DNA from: Luteitalea pratensis
GTDB taxonomy: Bacteria > Acidobacteriota > Vicinamibacteria > Vicinamibacterales > Vicinamibacteraceae
Direction of reading: 5' to 3'
Assembly (NCBI RefSeq): GCF_001618865.1
Contig: NZ_CP015136.1
Coordinates: 5,305,001-5,369,000, forward strand
DNA: 64,000 nt
Positions 8,495 through 63,520 of the stretch are shown one piece after another. The translations under genes were made by a program, and so were the position numbers. Each line of letters starts with the position of its first letter. The stretch's first letter is position 1. Under the pieces are notes generated by a model. That model searched no databases, was not told the DNA's origin, and saw nothing but the letters and a program-made list of their open reading frames with translations.

Positions 8495-8576
8495 GGACGG
8501 CTCTCCGAGCCGTCCATCACCTCAGGTAGTGGCGTCCATCGCCCAGGAGATGGACCGCTCGGAGAGCGGTCCCTAC
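8493..8576. repeat. Two inverted copies of the GGTAGGGACC-GCTC palindromic repeat between convergent genes
   Basis: Perfect hairpins GGACGGCTC-TCC-GAGCCGTCC (8495-8515) and GGACCGCTC-GGA-GAGCGGTCC (8552-8572) face each other. Each copy reads GGTAGGGACnGCTC...GTCCATC outward-in, and the TAG stops of both mrcA and prfB abut the repeat. It may act as a bidirectional terminator, but there is no T-run. The same element recurs at 28331, 63448 and inside birA (21639). Confidence 0.85.
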
Positions 8577-20416: not shown

Positions 20417-21155
20417 CGAGGCGCACCTGAGGCAGGGAGAAGTGCCGGCGCGCGAGCTCCCCGGAGAGGGCGTCCTCGGCATCGCGGAAGGCATTGGCTG
20501 GCATCTGGGCGCGGTAAGGCGAGAGCTCGCCGCGCACCTGCTCGAGCAGTTCCTGGCGCCGTGCCTCCGGAAGGCTCGACCTCGCCGCCTGCGTCAGCGT
20601 GTGTTCGATCGTCACGAGACGCTCGATGATCCTGGTTCGCGCCTCGCCTCGCGCGCCACGCGACGCATCGAGACACGCGTCGACGACGCTGATAGTGGCG
20701 GCAACGGCCTCGCTCAGCGCCGACGGCAGCGCGCTGGTGGCAGTGACGGCGGACAGCCGCACGAGGACACGCTCGAGATGCTTCGGCAACGACGGCAGGC
20801 GCGACGTGGTGACTTCGGGCACTGCGGGCGTGGTCGCCATGCTCGTGGCGGCGTGGACGCCGACGGCCCGTCGCCACTGGTCGGCCGCGTCACGCACGTC
20901 TGCCTCGCAGAACTCGATCCGGACCGGGCGGCGGCGTGGCCCCTTCGCGGTGAGCCGCGCGACGGTGCGATCGACACCGTGCAGCACGATCCGCAGCGGC
21001 ATGCCGTCTTTCGCCCAGCCCGCGACGAGTTCGAAGGCCGGTCCGACGATCCGCACGAGATGGCCACCGTTGACGCGACACAGGTGTGCCTCCACGGCAC
21101 GGCAGAACGCGCCGATGTCGGTCGCCGCCGGCGACGTCGCATCCGTCTCGTGCAT
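20409..21155 (-). CDS. Conserved hypothetical protein in the birA-rlmD operon
   Basis: 248 residues if started at ATG 21155, whose A is shared with the birA stop (TGATG). I do not recognise a named domain. Residues 10-90 form a compact block (AFCRAVEAHLCRVNGGHLVR, WAKDGMPLRIVLHGVDRTVA, RRRPVRIEFCEADVRDAADQ) that looks like a small helical domain. The rest is helical with a charged C-terminus. No signal or membrane span is present. Its place between birA and rlmD with overlaps on both sides implies constant co-expression. It may be a lineage-specific accessory protein. Confidence 0.65.
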   Translation of the reverse strand: MHETDATSPAATDIGAFCRAVEAHLCRVNGGHLVRIVGPAFELVAGWAKDGMPLRIVLHGVDRTVARLTAKGPRRRPVRIEFCEADVRDAADQWRRAVGVHAATSMATTPAVPEVTTSRLPSLPKHLERVLVRLSAVTATSALPSALSEAVAATISVVDACLDASRGARGEARTRIIERLVTIEHTLTQAARSSLPEARRQELLEQVRGELSPYRAQMPANAFRDAEDALSGELARRHFSLPQVRLDG

Positions 21156-22162
21156 CAGGCCTCTCGATCCTCCAGGTGCCATTCGATCTCGCCGCCATGA
21201 ACGGTGACGTGGGCGCCGCCGTCCAGTCGCACGCGCAGAGCACCGGTGTCGTCGATGCCTGCCGCCCGTCCGCGCCGCGTTTCGCCAAGGGCATGCCAGC
21301 GCACTGCCGTGCCCTCGACCGACGGCGCATGCCGGCGCCAGCGCGTGCGCACGTCCTCGACCGCATCACGGGTCAGCAAGTCGACGCCGCGACGCAGGTG
21401 CCTGAGCACGGCACTCACGAGCGACGACAGCGTGGCAGGCGTGATGACGCCGGTGGGCATCAGGTCGTCGAGGGTGATCATGCGCGCGGCGATGTCAGCC
21501 GGCGCCTCGCAACGGTGCAGGTTCACGCCGATGCCGAGGACGACGGTCCTGAGCGTACCGCCTTCGCTGGCGCCCTCCGCGAGGATACCCCCCAGCTTGC
21601 GCCAGGGAGGACCGGCAAGCGATGCATGATCGTCGTCAGGCCGGGTTCGGAGAACCGGCCCTACCGTCTCATGCACGAATGCTGGCGTGGCGCCACGCAC
21701 TGCACCGTTCGAAGGCCGAAGGCCGACGGCCGACGGCCGCCCCCGGCGCACCATGATGTCGTTGGGCCATTTCAGCTCGGTGGCCGGCGACTGACAGACG
21801 TCGCCGATGGCCGAGACGACAGCGACACCGGCCATCAGCGTGACGAGCGTCGAGGCAGGCGAGGCAGGGTCGGTGCGGACGGCGGTCCAACGATCGGGGC
21901 GCAGGAGCGTCGACAGATAGAGGCCACGTGCCGCCGGCGAGTGCCAGGCGGCACCGCGCCGGCCTCGTCCCGCGGTCTGTTCGCCCGCGATGACGGTGTA
22001 CCCCTCCGGTGCGCCGTCGAACGCGGCCCGTGCCACGTCGTCGTTGGTCGAGCCGGTGGTGGTGAGGACGGACACGTGCTGCCCGAACGCGCCTGCGTCC
22101 ACGCCGGCCGCCGCGACGCCGGTGCGTACAGCCGCGAGCCACGTGGCGAGGTCGGTGCTCAC
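21155..22162 (-). CDS. birA: Biotin--[acetyl-CoA carboxylase] ligase with an internal insertion
   Basis: 335 residues from GTG 22162 (GTGA overlap with nadC). There is no N-terminal DNA-binding domain, so it is a monofunctional ligase. Motifs: TTTGSTNDDVARAA, the biotinoyl-AMP loop QTAGRGRRGAAWHS, ELKWPNDIMV, KLGGILAE and GIGVNLHR, plus a C-terminal SH3-like cap. Normally the strand ending PNDIMV is joined to GRKLGG by a few residues. Here about 45 residues (143-187) are inserted, encoded by 21602-21736, which is made of the spacer-type repeats. The insertion keeps the frame and lies in a surface loop, so activity may be retained. Confidence 0.9.
   Translation of the reverse strand: MSTDLATWLAAVRTGVAAAGVDAGAFGQHVSVLTTTGSTNDDVARAAFDGAPEGYTVIAGEQTAGRGRRGAAWHSPAARGLYLSTLLRPDRWTAVRTDPASPASTLVTLMAGVAVVSAIGDVCQSPATELKWPNDIMVRRGRPSAVGLRPSNGAVRGATPAFVHETVGPVLRTRPDDDHASLAGPPWRKLGGILAEGASEGGTLRTVVLGIGVNLHRCEAPADIAARMITLDDLMPTGVITPATLSSLVSAVLRHLRRGVDLLTRDAVEDVRTRWRRHAPSVEGTAVRWHALGETRRGRAAGIDDTGALRVRLDGGAHVTVHGGEIEWHLEDREA
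21602..21736. repeat. Spacer-type repeat sequence inside birA
   Basis: On the plus strand the palindrome GGTTC-GGA-GAACC with flanking CCCTACC (21639-21665) matches the repeat at 8552, 28331 and 63448. A heptad array AGGCCGA, AGGCCGA, CGGCCGA, CGGCCGC (21706-21740) matches the GGCCTTC/GGCCATC arrays at 28266 and 61184. Together they account for most of the extra 135 bp (45 codons). Confidence 0.75.
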
Positions 22163-23016: not shown

Positions 23017-25619
23017 GCCCGGACCTCGGGTGCCGGCTCGAGTTCGCCGAGCTCGATCGTGGCGGCACGGGCCTCGCCCTCCGAGGTGCGGACACGCTGG
23101 ACGAACCCTGACGCAGCCACGTCCGCACGAGCGGCCTCGAAGCAGGCCAGGTCCGCGGCCGGCGCGGTCACGTGGAAGTCGACGACCGGCGTGCGCAGCG
23201 GCTTCTTCGCTTCCGACTTCGTTCGCCGGATTTCGCCAAGTGCCCACGACGCCATGGCGAGCGCATCGTCTCCGGCGGCATCACCGGCACCGTCGATGGC
23301 GGCGAGCACCTCGGCAGCGGTCGGCCACGTCGCCCGATGCACCGAACCTTCCTTCCACCACGACCACACTTCCTCGGTCACGTACGGCAGGAAGGGCGCG
23401 AACAGGCGCAGCAGCGTCTGCAGCGTGACGACCATCGCGGCGTTGGCCGAGCCCGCGCCATCCACGCCGAGATCCCCGTAGCGGCGTGCCTTCACCAACT
23501 CCAGGTAGTTGTCGCAGAAATCCCAGAAGAACTGCTCGGTCCGCTCCAGCGCCCGGGTGTAGTTGTACTCCTCGAGGTCGGCGGTGGTGTCGGTCACGAG
23601 TGTCGCGAGCCGGGTCACCAGTCCGCGGTCGACCGGCGCGGTCACCGCGCCAATCGGCTCGGTCCGCGCGAGTGCGAACTTTGCGGCGTTGAGCAGCTTA
23701 ATCGCGAGGCGACGGCCGACCCGCATCTGCCCGGTGTCGAACGCGGTGTCCGCGCCGGGACGGCCGCTGGCCGCCCAGTAGCGGACGGCGTCCGATCCGT
23801 GCTCCTCGAGCAAGCCCATGGGCGTCACGACGTTGCCCTTGGACTTGGACATCTTCTTGCGGTCGGGATCCAGCACCCAGCCGGAGATCGAGGCGTGTTT
23901 CCACGGCAGCGCATCGTGCTCGAGGTGAGCACGCAGCACCGTCGAGAACAGCCACGTGCGGATGATGTCGTGCGCCTGCGGCCGCAGGTCGAGCGGGAAG
24001 ACGCGGCCGAAGAAGTTCGCGTCCTCACCCCACTGGCCGACGATCTGCGGCGTCAGTGACGACGTCGCCCAGGTGTCCATCACGTCGGGGTCGCCCACGA
24101 ACCCGCCCGGCACGCCGCGCTGCCCGGCCTCGTAGCCGGCAGGGACGTCCGTAGAGGGATCCATCGGTAGCTGCGCCTCGTCTGCCAGCAGTGGCTCGTC
24201 GTAGCGCACGGTGCCGTCTTCCGCAATCGGGTACCACACCGGGAACGGCACGCCGAAGAAGCGCTGACGGGACACGCACCAGTCGCCGTTGAGGCCTTCC
24301 ACCCAGTTCTCGAACCGCGCGCGCATGTAGGCCGGGTGCCACTCGAGCGTGCGTCCGCGCGCGATCAACGCCTCGCGCTGATTCATCGTGCGGATGAACC
24401 ATTGGCGGCTGGTGACGATCTCGAGCGGGCGATCGCCTTTCTCGTAGAACTTCACCGCGTGCGTGATCGGCCGTGGATCGCCATCGAGATCGCCCGACTC
24501 CTTGAGCTGCTCGACGACCCGGGTGCGTGCCTGCGACGCACCTCGGCCGACCAGCGGCGCGTACGCCTGCTCGGCGCGCGCCGGGTCGATCGACGGCCAC
24601 GTGTCGCCGCCGAACATGATTGGGCGCAAGGTGCCGTTGGTCTCGATGATGGAGCGCACCGGGAGGTTCAGCTCACGCCACCAGATGACGTCGGTCAGGT
24701 CGCCGAACGTGCAGATCATCGCGATGCCGGTGCCCTTCTCGGGATCGGCGAGGTGATGTGGGCGGATCGGTACCTTGACGCCGAACAGCGGCGTCACGAC
24801 CTCGGTGCCGAACAGCGGCTGGTACCGGGCATCGTCGGGATGGGCGACGAGCGCGACGCAGGCCGGAATCAGTTCGGGGCGCGTGGTGTCGATCTCGACG
24901 AAGCCCTGGCCGTCGGCGCGGGCGAAGCGGATCTTGTGGTACGCGCCCGGCATCTCGCGGTCCTCGAGTTCGGCCTGGGCGACAGCCGTCCGGAAGTCCA
25001 CGTCCCACAGCGTCGGCGCTTCGAGCTGGTACGCCTGGCCCCTGGCAAGCAGGCGGAGGAACGCCAACTGCGAGATCTTCTGGGCGCGCTTGCCGATGGT
25101 CGCGTAGGTCATCGACCAGTCGATCGAGAGACCGAGGTACTTCCAGAGGTGCTCGAACGCCTGTTCGTCCTGCTCGGTGAGGCGCGTGCACAATTCGATG
25201 AAGTTCGGGCGCGACACCGAGATCGGCTGCTTGCCCGGCGTCGCCGGCGGCTCGAACCCTGGGTCGTACGGCAGCGACGGATCGCATCGCACGCCGAAGT
25301 AGTTCTGCACCCGGCGCTCGGTCGGCAGGCCGTTGTCGTCCCATCCCATCGGGTAGCAGACGGCGAAGCCGCGCATCCGCTTGTAGCGCGCGATGACGTC
25401 GGTGTGCGTGTAGGAAAAGACGTGCCCCACATGGAGCGAGCCGCTCACGGTGGGCGGTGGCGTGTCGATGCTGTAGACCTCGTCACGCGGCCGCGTCCGG
25501 TCGAACCGGTAGACGGCGTCGGCATCCCAGCGGGGCTGCCATTTCGCTTCGAGGCCCTCGAGGGCCGGCTTCTCAGGAACGTTGTAGGACGGGGACGGAC
25601 TCGACGCCTCGGACATCAC
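23013..25619 (-). CDS. valS: Valyl-tRNA synthetase
   Basis: An 868-residue class Ia synthetase. The HIGH motif is SGSLHVGHVFSYTHTD near residue 60. The GWDDNGLPTERRVQNYFGV block is followed by a CP1 editing domain. The KMSKS loop is KKMSKSKGNVVTP near 590, followed by the anticodon-binding helical bundle. Length fits the shorter, actinobacterial-like ValS type. It is first in a five-gene overlapping series (valS-nadC-birA-hypothetical-rlmD). Confidence 0.96.
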   Translation of the reverse strand: MMSEASSPSPSYNVPEKPALEGLEAKWQPRWDADAVYRFDRTRPRDEVYSIDTPPPTVSGSLHVGHVFSYTHTDVIARYKRMRGFAVCYPMGWDDNGLPTERRVQNYFGVRCDPSLPYDPGFEPPATPGKQPISVSRPNFIELCTRLTEQDEQAFEHLWKYLGLSIDWSMTYATIGKRAQKISQLAFLRLLARGQAYQLEAPTLWDVDFRTAVAQAELEDREMPGAYHKIRFARADGQGFVEIDTTRPELIPACVALVAHPDDARYQPLFGTEVVTPLFGVKVPIRPHHLADPEKGTGIAMICTFGDLTDVIWWRELNLPVRSIIETNGTLRPIMFGGDTWPSIDPARAEQAYAPLVGRGASQARTRVVEQLKESGDLDGDPRPITHAVKFYEKGDRPLEIVTSRQWFIRTMNQREALIARGRTLEWHPAYMRARFENWVEGLNGDWCVSRQRFFGVPFPVWYPIAEDGTVRYDEPLLADEAQLPMDPSTDVPAGYEAGQRGVPGGFVGDPDVMDTWATSSLTPQIVGQWGEDANFFGRVFPLDLRPQAHDIIRTWLFSTVLRAHLEHDALPWKHASISGWVLDPDRKKMSKSKGNVVTPMGLLEEHGSDAVRYWAASGRPGADTAFDTGQMRVGRRLAIKLLNAAKFALARTEPIGAVTAPVDRGLVTRLATLVTDTTADLEEYNYTRALERTEQFFWDFCDNYLELVKARRYGDLGVDGAGSANAAMVVTLQTLLRLFAPFLPYVTEEVWSWWKEGSVHRATWPTAAEVLAAIDGAGDAAGDDALAMASWALGEIRRTKSEAKKPLRTPVVDFHVTAPAADLACFEAARADVAASGFVQRVRTSEGEARAATIELGELEPAPEVRA

Positions 25620-25654
25620 CCGATGATCGTAGGGGGTGGCTCGCTCGCTCGCAA

Positions 25655-25838
25655 GAGGGAGGCGCTTCGCAAGGAGAAAGGGCGAAAAGGGCCAAAAGAC
25701 AGAATCGAAGGAGAAAGGCGGAAGGACTTGAAGGTCTTGTTGACCTTTCAGGATTGAAGGCCGGCTTCCGTGGCTTTAGCCGTTGTCCTTCGATTCTGCC
25801 TTTCCGCCCTTTTCGCCCTTTTCGCCCTTTTTACCTTT
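25655..25838. repeat. Long purine/pyrimidine inverted repeat between valS and the response regulator
   Basis: The left arm has units like AGAAAGGGCGAAAAGG, GCCAAAAGAC, AGAATCGAAGGAG. The right arm has TCCTTCGATTCTG, CCTTTCCGCC and CTTTTCGCC three times. The arms pair over about 45 bp around a loop of about 60 nt. It is the only large gene-free structure before the valS start and immediately follows the response-regulator stop on the minus strand. Confidence 0.75.
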
Positions 25839-28265: not shown

Positions 28266-28433
28266 GGCAATCAGTCGGCCATCGGCCCTCGGCCTTCGCC
28301 TAATCGGCCATCGGCCTTCGGCTTCGTGCGAGGGCCGCGCTCGGAGAGCGGGCCCTACCGCCGCGGCCCAAGCGTCAAGCGTCAAGCGTTAAGCGTTCGC
28401 AGTAGGCATGAGGCATCAGGTATCAGGCATTAC
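28266..28433. repeat. Composite repeat spacer: three heptad-word families and a palindrome
   Basis: In order: GGCCATC/GGCCTTC heptads (28266-28327), the palindrome GGGCCGCGCTC-GGA-GAGCGGGCCC followed by TACC (28331-28359), AAGCGTC heptads (28370-28399) and AGGCATC/AGGTATC heptads (28401-28433). It sits between the two halves of methylmalonyl-CoA mutase and is the clearest composite in the window. Confidence 0.8.
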
Positions 28434-49956: not shown

Positions 49957-50063
49957 CGGGTACCGGGTACCGGGTACCGGGTACCGGGTGCCGGGTGCCG
50001 GGTGCCGGGTGCCGGGTACCGCGCACCGCATCGACGAACGCTGAACGTCGGACGCCGAACGCT
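49957..50063. repeat. Heptad-word array (GGGTACC / GGGTGCC) and GAACGCT units
   Basis: About ten 7-bp units GGGTACC or GGGTGCC in perfect register (49957-50030), then GAACGCT, GAACGTC, GGACGCC, GAACGCT (50036-50063). It lies just upstream of the cmk start and between two divergent genes. Unlike the other arrays it contains no stop codon, so a spurious N-terminal extension of cmk stays open through it. Confidence 0.9.
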
Positions 50064-56645: not shown

Positions 56646-56671
56646 GGTAGGCAAAGACAGTAGGGTACCAG

Positions 56672-56766
56672 CCAATTTCAGAATTGCAGAATTGCACCGC
56701 CATGGTCAGCACTTCGAGGGTTGGCGCTGCCGATGAAATTCTGAAATTCTTGAAATTGCGCAATTC
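56672..56766. repeat. AT-rich octad-word hairpin, second copy (GAATTGCA family)
   Basis: CAATTTCA, GAATTGCA, GAATTGCA, CCGCCATGG on one arm and GGCGCTGCC, GATGAAATTCTG, AAATTCTTG, AAATTGCG, CAATTCTCAG on the other. It follows the uvrC stop directly (TGA then GAATTGCG on the minus strand). Confidence 0.85.
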
Positions 56767-58746
56767 TCAGGCGCCGGAGGCGAAGTGACGCAGCACCGCG
56801 TCGGCGGCCTTCGCGCCGACGACCGTCGTCAGTTCCTCGCGGCTGGCCCGCCGCACGCCGGCGACGCTGCCGAATGTCGTCAGCAACTGGCGGCGCCGCC
56901 GCGGACCGATCTGCGTGACCTCGTCGAGTTCGGAACGCAGGTCGCGATTGGCACGGGCCGCGCGGTGGAAGGTCACCGCAAAGCGGTGCGCCTCGTCCCG
57001 GATGCGCTGCAGCATCCGCAAGGCCGGCGTGCCATCGCCGAACGCGATCGGGTCTTCCCGGTCGCGGGTGAAGACCAACTCTTCCTGCTTGGCGAGACCG
57101 ACGGCGACCAGGTGATCGAGCCCCAGCGCTTCGAGGGCGTCGTAGGCGGCATTCAACTGGCCCTTGCCGCCGTCGATGACGATCAGGTCCGGCCAGGGGC
57201 CGTCCTCGTCGGCGACCTTGCGGTAGCGGCGCGTGACCACCTGGGTCATGGCCGCGAAGTCGTCAAGGAACCGGGCTCCGGGCTCCGGGTACCGGCCACC
57301 GGGGAGGCCGCCCTCGGGGCCGGCCTCCCGCGGACCTTGTGTCGCAAAGTCTGACGTGCCGACGATGCCCGCGACAACCTCCGGAACCGGAACGATACGT
57401 CCGGCCGCCCGATTCCCGACTCCCGACTCTCGACTCCCCGACTCGGCCCTGATCCGGTATTTCCGATACTCCGACCGTTTCATCCGACCGTCCTGGCACA
57501 CCACCATCGACGCGACCGTCTCGGCGCCCTGCAGCGTGGAGATGTCGAAGCAGTCGATCCGGCGTGGCAGCGCGGCCAGCCCCAGGGCGGCCTGCAACGT
57601 CTCGAGTGCCTCGTAGTTGGCCGCGCCCTCCGCGTTGAAGCGTGCGGCGTAGGACAGCGAGGCGTTGCGCTCGGCCAGTTCGAGGAGCGCCTTCTTGTCG
57701 CCGCGCTGGGGCACGCTCACCAGCACCTGTCGCCCGGCCCGGGCCGACAACCATTCAGCCAGCAGGTCCATGTCCGGCAAGGCGATCGGCAACAGCACCT
57801 CTGGCGGGGGTGCCTGCTCCGTGTACGCGTGCGTGACCGCCCGTTCGAGCAGTTCGTCGAGCCGCGCGTCGCGCGCCTGGTCGGCGTTGGTCACCATCTC
57901 GACGCGATCCACGACCCGCCCCGACCGCACCTGGAACACCTGCACCACGGCGCCGCCGGGCCCGAGCTTCACGCCGATGGCATCGCGGTCGCCCATGCGC
58001 GGCGTCGCCATCTTCTGCTGCCTGTCGCGTAGCGTCTCGAGCGTCCGGATCGTGTCGCGCAGCTGCGCCGCCTGCTCGTAGCGTTGCTCATCGGCCGCGG
58101 CCTGCATGCGCGATTCGAGGTCGGCCACCAGTTCCTCGGTGCGGCCATCGAGGAGCAGGCGCGCGTCCCGCACGGCGTGCTGGTAGTCGGCCTGGCTACA
58201 GATGGCGGCGACGCACGGGGCGAGACAACGCTTGATGTCGTATTCGAGGCAGGGGCGCCCCCGCTGCCCCGTGATCACCTCGCGGCACGAGCGGATGCCG
58301 AACAGCTTGTGCGACAGGCTGCGTGTCTGCCAGGCCAGCGAGGCGGGCATGAACGGCCCGGCGTAGTAGTCGCCGTCATTGGCCACGCGGCGCACGACGG
58401 TCACGCGCGGGAAACCCTCCGAGGTGCTGAGCCGCAGGTACGGGTACGTCTTGTCGTCGCGGAGCTTGATGTTGTACTTCGGCGACCGTTCCTTGATGAG
58501 GTTGTTCTCGAGGGCAAGCGCTTCGACCACCGAGTCGGTGACGATGACGTCGAGGCTGGTGACCTCGTCGAGCAGGGCTTCGGTCTTGGGTGACGAGCCA
58601 CGCGCCCCAAGGTAGCTGCGCACGCGGTCGCGTAGCGCGCGTGCCTTGCCCACGTAGATCGTCTCGCCCGCGGGGTTGCAATAGAGGTACACCCCGGGCT
58701 GCTCGGGCAGGCGTGCGATCTGGGTCTTCAGGTCTTCAATGGCCAT
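56767..58746 (-). CDS. uvrC: UvrABC excinuclease subunit C, with an internal insertion
   Basis: 659 residues. The GIY-YIG nuclease is at 16-95 (PGVYLYCNPAGETIYVGKAR), the Cys-rich loop at 148-180 (LEYDIKRCLAPCVAAICSQA), the UVR domain near 215, the RNase H-like C-terminal nuclease with FDISTLQGAETVASMVV (Asp) and VIDGGKGQLNAAYDALEALG, and the C-terminal HhH2 (VTQIGPRRRRQLLTTFGSVA). Normally YRxFxI is joined to DDFAAM by a few residues. Here about 61 residues (433-493) intervene, encoded by 57268-57450. Confidence 0.94.
   Translation of the reverse strand: MAIEDLKTQIARLPEQPGVYLYCNPAGETIYVGKARALRDRVRSYLGARGSSPKTEALLDEVTSLDVIVTDSVVEALALENNLIKERSPKYNIKLRDDKTYPYLRLSTSEGFPRVTVVRRVANDGDYYAGPFMPASLAWQTRSLSHKLFGIRSCREVITGQRGRPCLEYDIKRCLAPCVAAICSQADYQHAVRDARLLLDGRTEELVADLESRMQAAADEQRYEQAAQLRDTIRTLETLRDRQQKMATPRMGDRDAIGVKLGPGGAVVQVFQVRSGRVVDRVEMVTNADQARDARLDELLERAVTHAYTEQAPPPEVLLPIALPDMDLLAEWLSARAGRQVLVSVPQRGDKKALLELAERNASLSYAARFNAEGAANYEALETLQAALGLAALPRRIDCFDISTLQGAETVASMVVCQDGRMKRSEYRKYRIRAESGSRESGVGNRAAGRIVPVPEVVAGIVGTSDFATQGPREAGPEGGLPGGRYPEPGARFLDDFAAMTQVVTRRYRKVADEDGPWPDLIVIDGGKGQLNAAYDALEALGLDHLVAVGLAKQEELVFTRDREDPIAFGDGTPALRMLQRIRDEAHRFAVTFHRAARANRDLRSELDEVTQIGPRRRRQLLTTFGSVAGVRRASREELTTVVGAKAADAVLRHFASGA
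57268..57450. repeat. Spacer-type repeat sequence inside uvrC
   Basis: At one end the plus strand reads GAACCGG, GCTCCGG, GCTCCGG, GTACCGG, CCACCGG (57268-57304), at the other CCCGATT, CCCGACT, CCCGACT, CTCGACT, CCCCGACT (57409-57445). These are the same word types as the spacer arrays at 4103 and 49957. The intervening 105 bp is ordinary GC-rich sequence. It lacks stop codons in the uvrC frame. Confidence 0.75.
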
Positions 58747-61163: not shown

Positions 61164-61183
61164 CGAAACACTCGAAAAACTCG

Positions 61184-61250
61184 GCCATCGGCCATCGGCC
61201 CTGGGGCTTGGTAAGGGCAAACGAAGGCCGAAGGCCGGATGACCAAGGCC
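61184..61250. repeat. Heptad-word array (GGCCATC / GGCCGAA)
   Basis: CGGCCAT, CGGCCAT, CGGCCCT, then GGGGCTTGGTAAGGGC, then GAAGGCC, GAAGGCC, GGATGACCAAGGCC. It lies in the tdk-efp spacer; the same words are in the array inside birA. Confidence 0.75.
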
Positions 61251-61252
61251 GT

Positions 61253-63415: not shown

Positions 63416-63520
63416 TGCCTCATGCCTCATGCCTGACGTTCTGAGGTGATGGACCGCTCGGAGAGCGGTCCCTACCAACGATGCGGACATCGGACATCAG
63501 GCATCAGGCATCAGGCATCA
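63416..63520. repeat. Composite repeat: heptad arm, palindrome, inverted heptad arm
   Basis: ATGCCTC, ATGCCTC, ATGCCTG (63416-63437), then the palindrome GATGGACCGCTC-GGA-GAGCGGTCCCTACC (63448-63476), then GGACATC, GGACATC, AGGCATC, AGGCATC, AGGCATC (63485-63517). The two heptad arms are inverted. It fills the spacer between two convergent genes, and both stop codons lie at its edges. Confidence 0.85.

Follow-up and report, generated by a model that had tools for sequence, protein, structure and literature searches.

The uvrC gene of Luteitalea pratensis contains an in-frame insert with a period of seven nucleotides, and the loop of the encoded excinuclease subunit in which it lies is a recurrent hotspot for such heptad arrays. 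It is likely that the insert is a heptad-repeat insertion into an indel-tolerant loop, colonised repeatedly by species-private repeats, and that it is, probably, neutral filler.

The uvrC insert and its two arrays

The genome (G000) consists of one contig of 7,480,314 bases, and the window is the stretch of 64,000 nucleotides from position 5305001 to position 5369000 on which the analysis is centred. The named relatives of its UvrC include Luteitalea sp. and other Vicinamibacteria. An earlier reading of the window from its letters alone (the sequence-only reading) had claimed about 61 extra residues (57268-57450) between YRKYRI and DDFAAM, bounded by heptads; the insert proved to have 62, and both bounding arrays are confirmed (Table 1). 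In solved UvrC structures the same anchors stand 5 residues (2nrt) and 6 residues (3c65) apart, as read from alignments. The significance of the period, which the sequence-only reading had left to shuffling, holds: at lag 7 the insert matches itself with a score of 17, dinucleotide shuffles average 4.7 and all 200 of them stay below 17, and no other lag from 3 to 15 scores as high. A chance origin of the periodicity was ruled out by these shuffles together with coding controls. The middle of the insert, which is not heptad-repetitive, matched only itself at E below 0.02 in the 1.18 Mb searched.

Table 1. Coordinates within the window of uvrC, birA and the repeat features associated with them
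Feature	Position	Strand	Basis or sequence
uvrC, excinuclease ABC subunit C, 659 aa	56767..58746	-	ORF; Pfam GIY-YIG, UVR, UvrC_RNaseH_dom, HHH_5
In-frame insert, 62 residues, YRKYRI-DDFAAM loop of the C-terminal RNase H domain	57265..57450	-	
Heptad array 1, 5' end of insert; coding-strand word GGGAGTC and one GGGAATC unit	57408..57436	-	CCCGATTCCCGACTCCCGACTCTCGACTC
Middle of insert, non-heptad	57303..57407	-	
Heptad array 2, 3' end of insert; + strand units GGGCTCC, GGGTACC, GGCCACC	57271..57302	-	CCGGGCTCCGGGCTCCGGGTACCGGCCACCGG
Octamer arrays downstream of uvrC, inverted orientation	56674..56757	.	AATTGCAG-like, then TGAAATTC
birA, biotin protein ligase	21155..22162	-	
birA loop, KWPNDIM to KLGGIL, 51 residues	21599..21751	-	
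Heptad array of the birA loop, CGAAGGC/CGACGGC on + strand (CGGCCTT/CGGCCGT)	21710..21739	-	

AlphaFold predicts a disordered, floppy insert and an RNase H fold that is left intact. In the model (33 UvrC segments aligned), residues 74-128 have pLDDT below 50, the insert being residues 70-131, and the flanking ten-residue blocks average 94 and 90 against a mean of 80 for the model. Loop positions were found for the inserts of both UvrC and BirA, as the sequence-only reading had proposed; the UvrC loop probably lies at the surface. One of the two aspartates that follow the loop corresponds to a residue required for 5' incision in Escherichia coli, and the insert would therefore adjoin the active site.

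Recurrence at the same loop within the order

The uvrC gene was sought in 60 genomes of the order, one per species and many of them draft assemblies, and 58 loops were extracted. The two left out are G023, which gave only a short paralogous match, and G042, in which uvrC is split over two contigs (L029 and L061; a separate reading of L061 gives a loop of 9 residues). All 58 loops have a length that is a multiple of three, are free of stop codons, and measure 5-66 residues. After exclusion of five loops shorter than 24 nt, 53 were submitted to lag tests. At lag 7, 22 of these score above every one of 200 shuffles; chance would give about 0.3 such loops. These 22 array loops span 17 genera and 9 families (of 42 genera and 15 families sampled), and their strongest words comprise 20 distinct heptamers, some of them one letter apart: GGGAGTC in the window and in G001, GGCAACC in G002, GGGAACC in G004, and CGAGGGT in G029, for example.

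The expectation of a short linker elsewhere was borne out only outside the order, where the loop has 5-7 residues in all 20 genomes fetched (the best-scoring 20 of 109 searched), such as the 6-residue MNVAGV translated from L197; within the order it fails, given the range of the 58 loops. As a finding that would refute it, the sequence-only reading had named an insertion that is ancient and conserved across the phylum. This was rejected: the 20 loops outside the order are short, words change within a genus, and sequence, length and word vary even among congeners.

In a UvrC tree built without the loop, the array state requires at least 13 changes, of which 7 are forced by well-supported branches. 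This is a quick tree that includes one long, odd row (L058). The array state is clustered on it beyond chance (4 of 500 shuffles were equally low), which is expected if some relatives inherit their array.

Ten of the 25 loops of at least 60 nt give no lag-7 signal at p<0.05, and loop growth therefore has further causes. The uvrC of G041 (L034) carries in its YRKYRI-NDFAAM loop a long inverted repeat (arm score 28 versus a shuffle mean of 5.9) without heptad signal, a hairpin insertion of another kind in the position that the arrays occupy elsewhere. By eye, the long loops of L010, L012 and L039, all of family f8, share an RG..WG.ER start, which L014 resembles more loosely and which the long loop of L115 also shares; L010, L012 and L039 lack heptad signal in the lag-7 test. 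To judge from this similarity, the RG..WG.ER loops may represent an older, partly conserved insertion.

Words of the arrays and the stock of each genome

The word found in a uvrC loop is usually present in the stock of the same genome. Matches to three exact units of each word were counted genome-wide in 14 genomes; a long array yields several overlapping ones. GGGAGTC was found 226 times in G001, 70 in G004, 51 in the window genome and twice each in G003 and G027, with none in the other nine. GGCAACC occurs 184 times in G002 (one match being its own uvrC), 21 times in G029, 3 times in G004, and in none of the other 11. The counts for GGGATTC, a unit of the G010 and G027 arrays, are 13 in G010, 12 in G017, 8 in G027, 4 in G016 and 3 each in G000 and G029 (none in the other 8); those for CGAGGGT are 12 in G029 and 2 in G000 (none in the other 12); those for GGGAACC are 31 in G004 and 10 in G000 (none in the other 12); and those for GGGAATC, the word of G006, are 20 in G001, 11 in G000, 8 in G004 and 4 in G006 (none in the other 10).

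For the main uvrC words, all 8 source-genome cells are filled versus 14 of the 76 other cells (Fisher 7e-6), with the main word of each loop picked by eye, minor units (GGGAATC in G000 and G001) not counted as sources, and cells that are not independent because congeners have words in common. GGGCTCC, the word of array 2 in the window, is the exception: among the 14 genomes, three exact units are absent from its own and occur once each in two others. With this word added, 8 of 9 source cells and 16 of 89 others are filled (p 4e-5).

Arrays between genes

Arrays are abundant and mostly intergenic in the window genome and its relatives, and for the most part a word is confined to one species or genus. 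Over 244 kb of G000, 41 segments reach the lag-7 threshold, 36 of them not inside called genes (outside conserved genes, calls were made with a home-made dicodon caller), versus 0, 0, 1, 8, 3, 0, 0 and 1 segments at lags 4, 5, 6, 8, 9, 10, 11 and 12; the same 244 kb hold 25 canonical words among 48 arrays. Of 170 intergenic gaps measuring 60-350 bp in three congeners, 55 contain lag-7 or lag-8 arrays, versus none of 170 randomly chosen coding segments of matched length, which did not reach the lag-7/8 score of 11. A comparison of orthologous gaps among G000, G001 and G002 shows arrays in some species only, with words that differ: the gap at 61164-61252 has facing TCGGCCA and CGAAGGC arrays, and its counterpart in G001 has GGGAGTC and GACTCCC.

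Several other repeats were observed between genes of the window. The gap downstream of uvrC (56646-56766) contains octamer arrays, which the corresponding gaps in G001 and G002 lack; these may be of the same nature as the heptad arrays or of another. The top lag-7 array of the window (49957-50029; CGGGTAC/CGGGTGC, about 10 units) lies directly upstream of a gene that by eye resembles one for cytidylate kinase, and the corresponding gap of G001 has no marked array. A 222 bp gap (25617-25838) contains a long imperfect hairpin (30.5 versus 8.4) and CCTTTTCGC 9-mers; its orthologues measure 28 bp in G001 and 52 bp in G002. The palindromic word GCTCGGAGAGCGG has four copies, one with a single mismatch, all of them intergenic (8498-8569, 28339-28351, 63456-63468), with 0.4 expected by shuffling, and is apparently an independent, dispersed palindromic repeat.

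birA and other genes

The sequence-only reading had placed the same type of sequence in birA. This is correct as to the period, the lag-7 score of the birA loop (20.5) exceeding 200 of 200 shuffles; the words differ between uvrC and birA. Of 30 birA loci fetched from a search of 60 genomes, 27 loops were read out: that of G001 has 39 residues and a GGGAAGC array (lag 7 over 200 of 200 shuffles), those of three further congeners have 10-11 residues, and the remainder have 4-14.

When the window was compared with two congeners, 22 internal protein indels of at least 6 residues were found, and only that of birA carries a heptad array; the uvrC array was missed in this comparison because aligned arrays mask one another. 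In nine further stretches of G000 (180 kb), one of 25 lag-7 segments lies within a called gene, L077, the protein of which has no Pfam match at E 0.001. Nine of 32 clusters of three GGGAGTC units in G000 lie within genes called by our own script, and the real in-frame share is below this because several calls (e.g. L160, L162 and L171) look overextended at the 5' end. By eye, the GGGAGTC arrays of L167 and L172 in G000 seem to encode SRESGVG repeats, in an ABC-transporter-like protein and a membrane-protein-like ORF, and are possible further in-frame cases. Among the genes scanned, the uvrC loop is struck unusually often.

Inverted arms, folding and stop codons

Inverted arms were detected at p<0.05 in 14 of the 53 loops tested, 13 of which are among the 22 array loops. 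The window insert is not one of these (score 9.5 versus 8.3, p 0.17), and its two arms use different words. Between genes, inverted arms exceed 40 of 40 shuffles in 16 of 55 gaps with arrays and are found in 19 of 115 array-free gaps; among coding controls, 3 of 170 exceed 20 of 20 shuffles. Inverted arms are commoner in UvrC arrays (13/22) than in array gaps (16/55) by a Fisher test (0.02) that sets unlike thresholds side by side. The excess in UvrC is not predicted by neutrality alone. Among 23 pairs of arrays no more than 250 bp apart, 5 match in inverted and 6 in direct orientation at 6-7 letters, the backgrounds being 8.5% and 7.3%. The pairing of words between neighbouring arrays is thus a weak excess, no stronger for inverted than for direct matches, and three of the five inverted pairs are in uvrC.

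An RNA fold z below -2 was obtained for 11 of 20 array loops of at least 45 nt versus 1 of 16 array-free loops, and a G4 motif on either strand is likewise present in 11 of the 20; two of the 22 array loops fell short of 45 nt and were left out of these tests. The window loop has an ordinary fold (z -0.5) and no G4 motif. A general G4 or hairpin function was rejected, with 9 of the 20 array loops lacking an unusual fold and 9 of 20 lacking G4.

The absence of stop codons from the words of the uvrC loop had been described as a feature that most spacer arrays lack. The loop is indeed free of stops, which points to a mild filter by selection and to no particular class of word: among 67 arrays outside called genes, 50 are free of TAA, TAG and TGA on at least one strand. 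The stop filter imposed by the reading frame is mild because 76 of the 134 strand readings of these arrays are already stop-free.

Competing explanations

If the insert is what we think it likely to be, heptad arrays would arise in, or be copied into, the UvrC loop repeatedly; selection would keep only those that preserve the frame and contain no stop; slippage might alter the number of units after arrival; and template switching across the hairpin could keep facing arms alike within a species, with words differing between species. The peptide would be unstructured filler beside the endonuclease active site, probably with no conserved function. A variant of this process, which we regard as unlikely, is an active, species-tuned writing of arrays, in which the genome's own stock of heptads, copied in trans, would reach permissive sites including the UvrC loop and keep providing linker peptides that are new and private to the species; the excess of inverted arms in UvrC would be a footprint of the writing and not of chance. 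No more probable is a mobile palindromic element of the MITE or REP type that inserts in frame as in Rickettsia, of which the heptads would be merely the ends. The in-frame loop insertions in both uvrC and birA, the inverted arms of 13 of 22 UvrC arrays, the long inverted repeat without heptads at the same site in L034, and matches to the Y1 transposase (PF01797) in 10 of 13 genomes searched are all in keeping with such an element. However, the arrays have no common sequence, as the 20 distinct strongest words attest, the middle of the window insert has no match but itself, and G002, with its 184 GGCAACC matches, gives no Y1 match in a draft assembly that is 95% complete; the same is true of G003 and G027. 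Transposition of the RAYT/REP type was rejected as a general explanation on the strength of the array-rich G002.

Two further explanations assign a function to the insert. A selected nucleic-acid structure, either an mRNA or DNA hairpin or a G-quadruplex regulating uvrC, would account for the unusual folds and G4 motifs of 11 of 20 array loops each; we consider it very improbable, since nearly half of these loops lack the one feature, nearly half lack the other, and that of the window has neither. As the nucleic acid itself is unlikely to have a conserved structural role, the loop is read as a tolerant collector of the genome's own repeats. About as improbable is a contingency switch, by which slippage of one heptad would shift the frame of uvrC and turn excision repair off and on at high frequency. 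Units of seven nucleotides do shift the frame unless changed in threes, and the arrays do recur in a repair gene over 9 families; yet all 58 loops are in frame, an argument that is weak because consensus assemblies would hide minority variants, and the units are often imperfect, which should reduce slippage.

Known repeat systems and significance

The arrays probably behave like the GGGNATC heptads of Xanthomonas and Nostoc. Rehm et al. (2015, PMC4692102) describe these as dispersed over the genome (in two xanthomonads 89% and 93% intergenic, 11% and 7% intragenic), with 70 and 75 convergent inverted pairs, extensive variation of length and sequence among close species, and a function given as unknown. 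The arrays reported here are likewise tandem, 7 bp in period, dispersed and mainly outside genes, and GGGAATC arrays of that type occur in 4 of the 14 genomes. That study dealt with one G-rich word type per organism, with a peak at four units; here, in contrast, there are many words per genome, several of which lack GGG, and the arrays recurrently invade the loop of a conserved gene. The present words do not conform to the GGGNATC type with four G-tracts that can form G-quadruplexes: G000 has 25 canonical words in the 244 kb, there is no G4 motif in the window loop, and array 1 has a single GGGAATC unit.

According to a review (PMC10969869), the palindromic elements of Rickettsia (Ogata et al. 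2000, 2002) are repeat DNA found in frame in unrelated housekeeping genes, about 150 bp long, grouped in families and encoding a conserved peptide. The present arrays resemble them in being inserted in frame into genes for conserved proteins (uvrC, birA), and differ in having no conserved sequence or peptide, a period of 7 bp, and the same loop struck in many lineages. Template switching, according to a study of yeast (PMC8604942), homogenises the arms of inverted repeats, also in coding DNA; the repeats there are short inverted ones, as opposed to the bacterial heptad arrays here. Unlike REP/RAYT systems, the arrays occur in genomes that do not all yield a Y1 transposase. The STRR heptamers of cyanobacteria are likewise tandem heptanucleotides, and they are not known to have a recurrent in-gene site. 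Heptanucleotides of Calothrix are mentioned in PMC4692102. No prior description of heptanucleotide tandem repeats of Acidobacteria or Luteitalea was found in the openly licensed literature. Heptads with inverted pairs and in-frame repeat insertions are thus already known, and the recurrently invaded protein loop is new.

The process that litters intergenic space in these bacteria also writes into a conserved DNA-repair protein. The result is a natural experiment: a single orthologous site exists in 22 array-bearing versions, of which several arose separately and all have been kept in frame by selection, and from them the beginnings, the spread and the changes of word of 7-bp arrays can be read. 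It suggests that mutational filler can pass for innovation at the protein level in an enzyme of DNA repair, and the origin of bacterial heptameric repeats becomes testable through comparison of strains at the UvrC loop.
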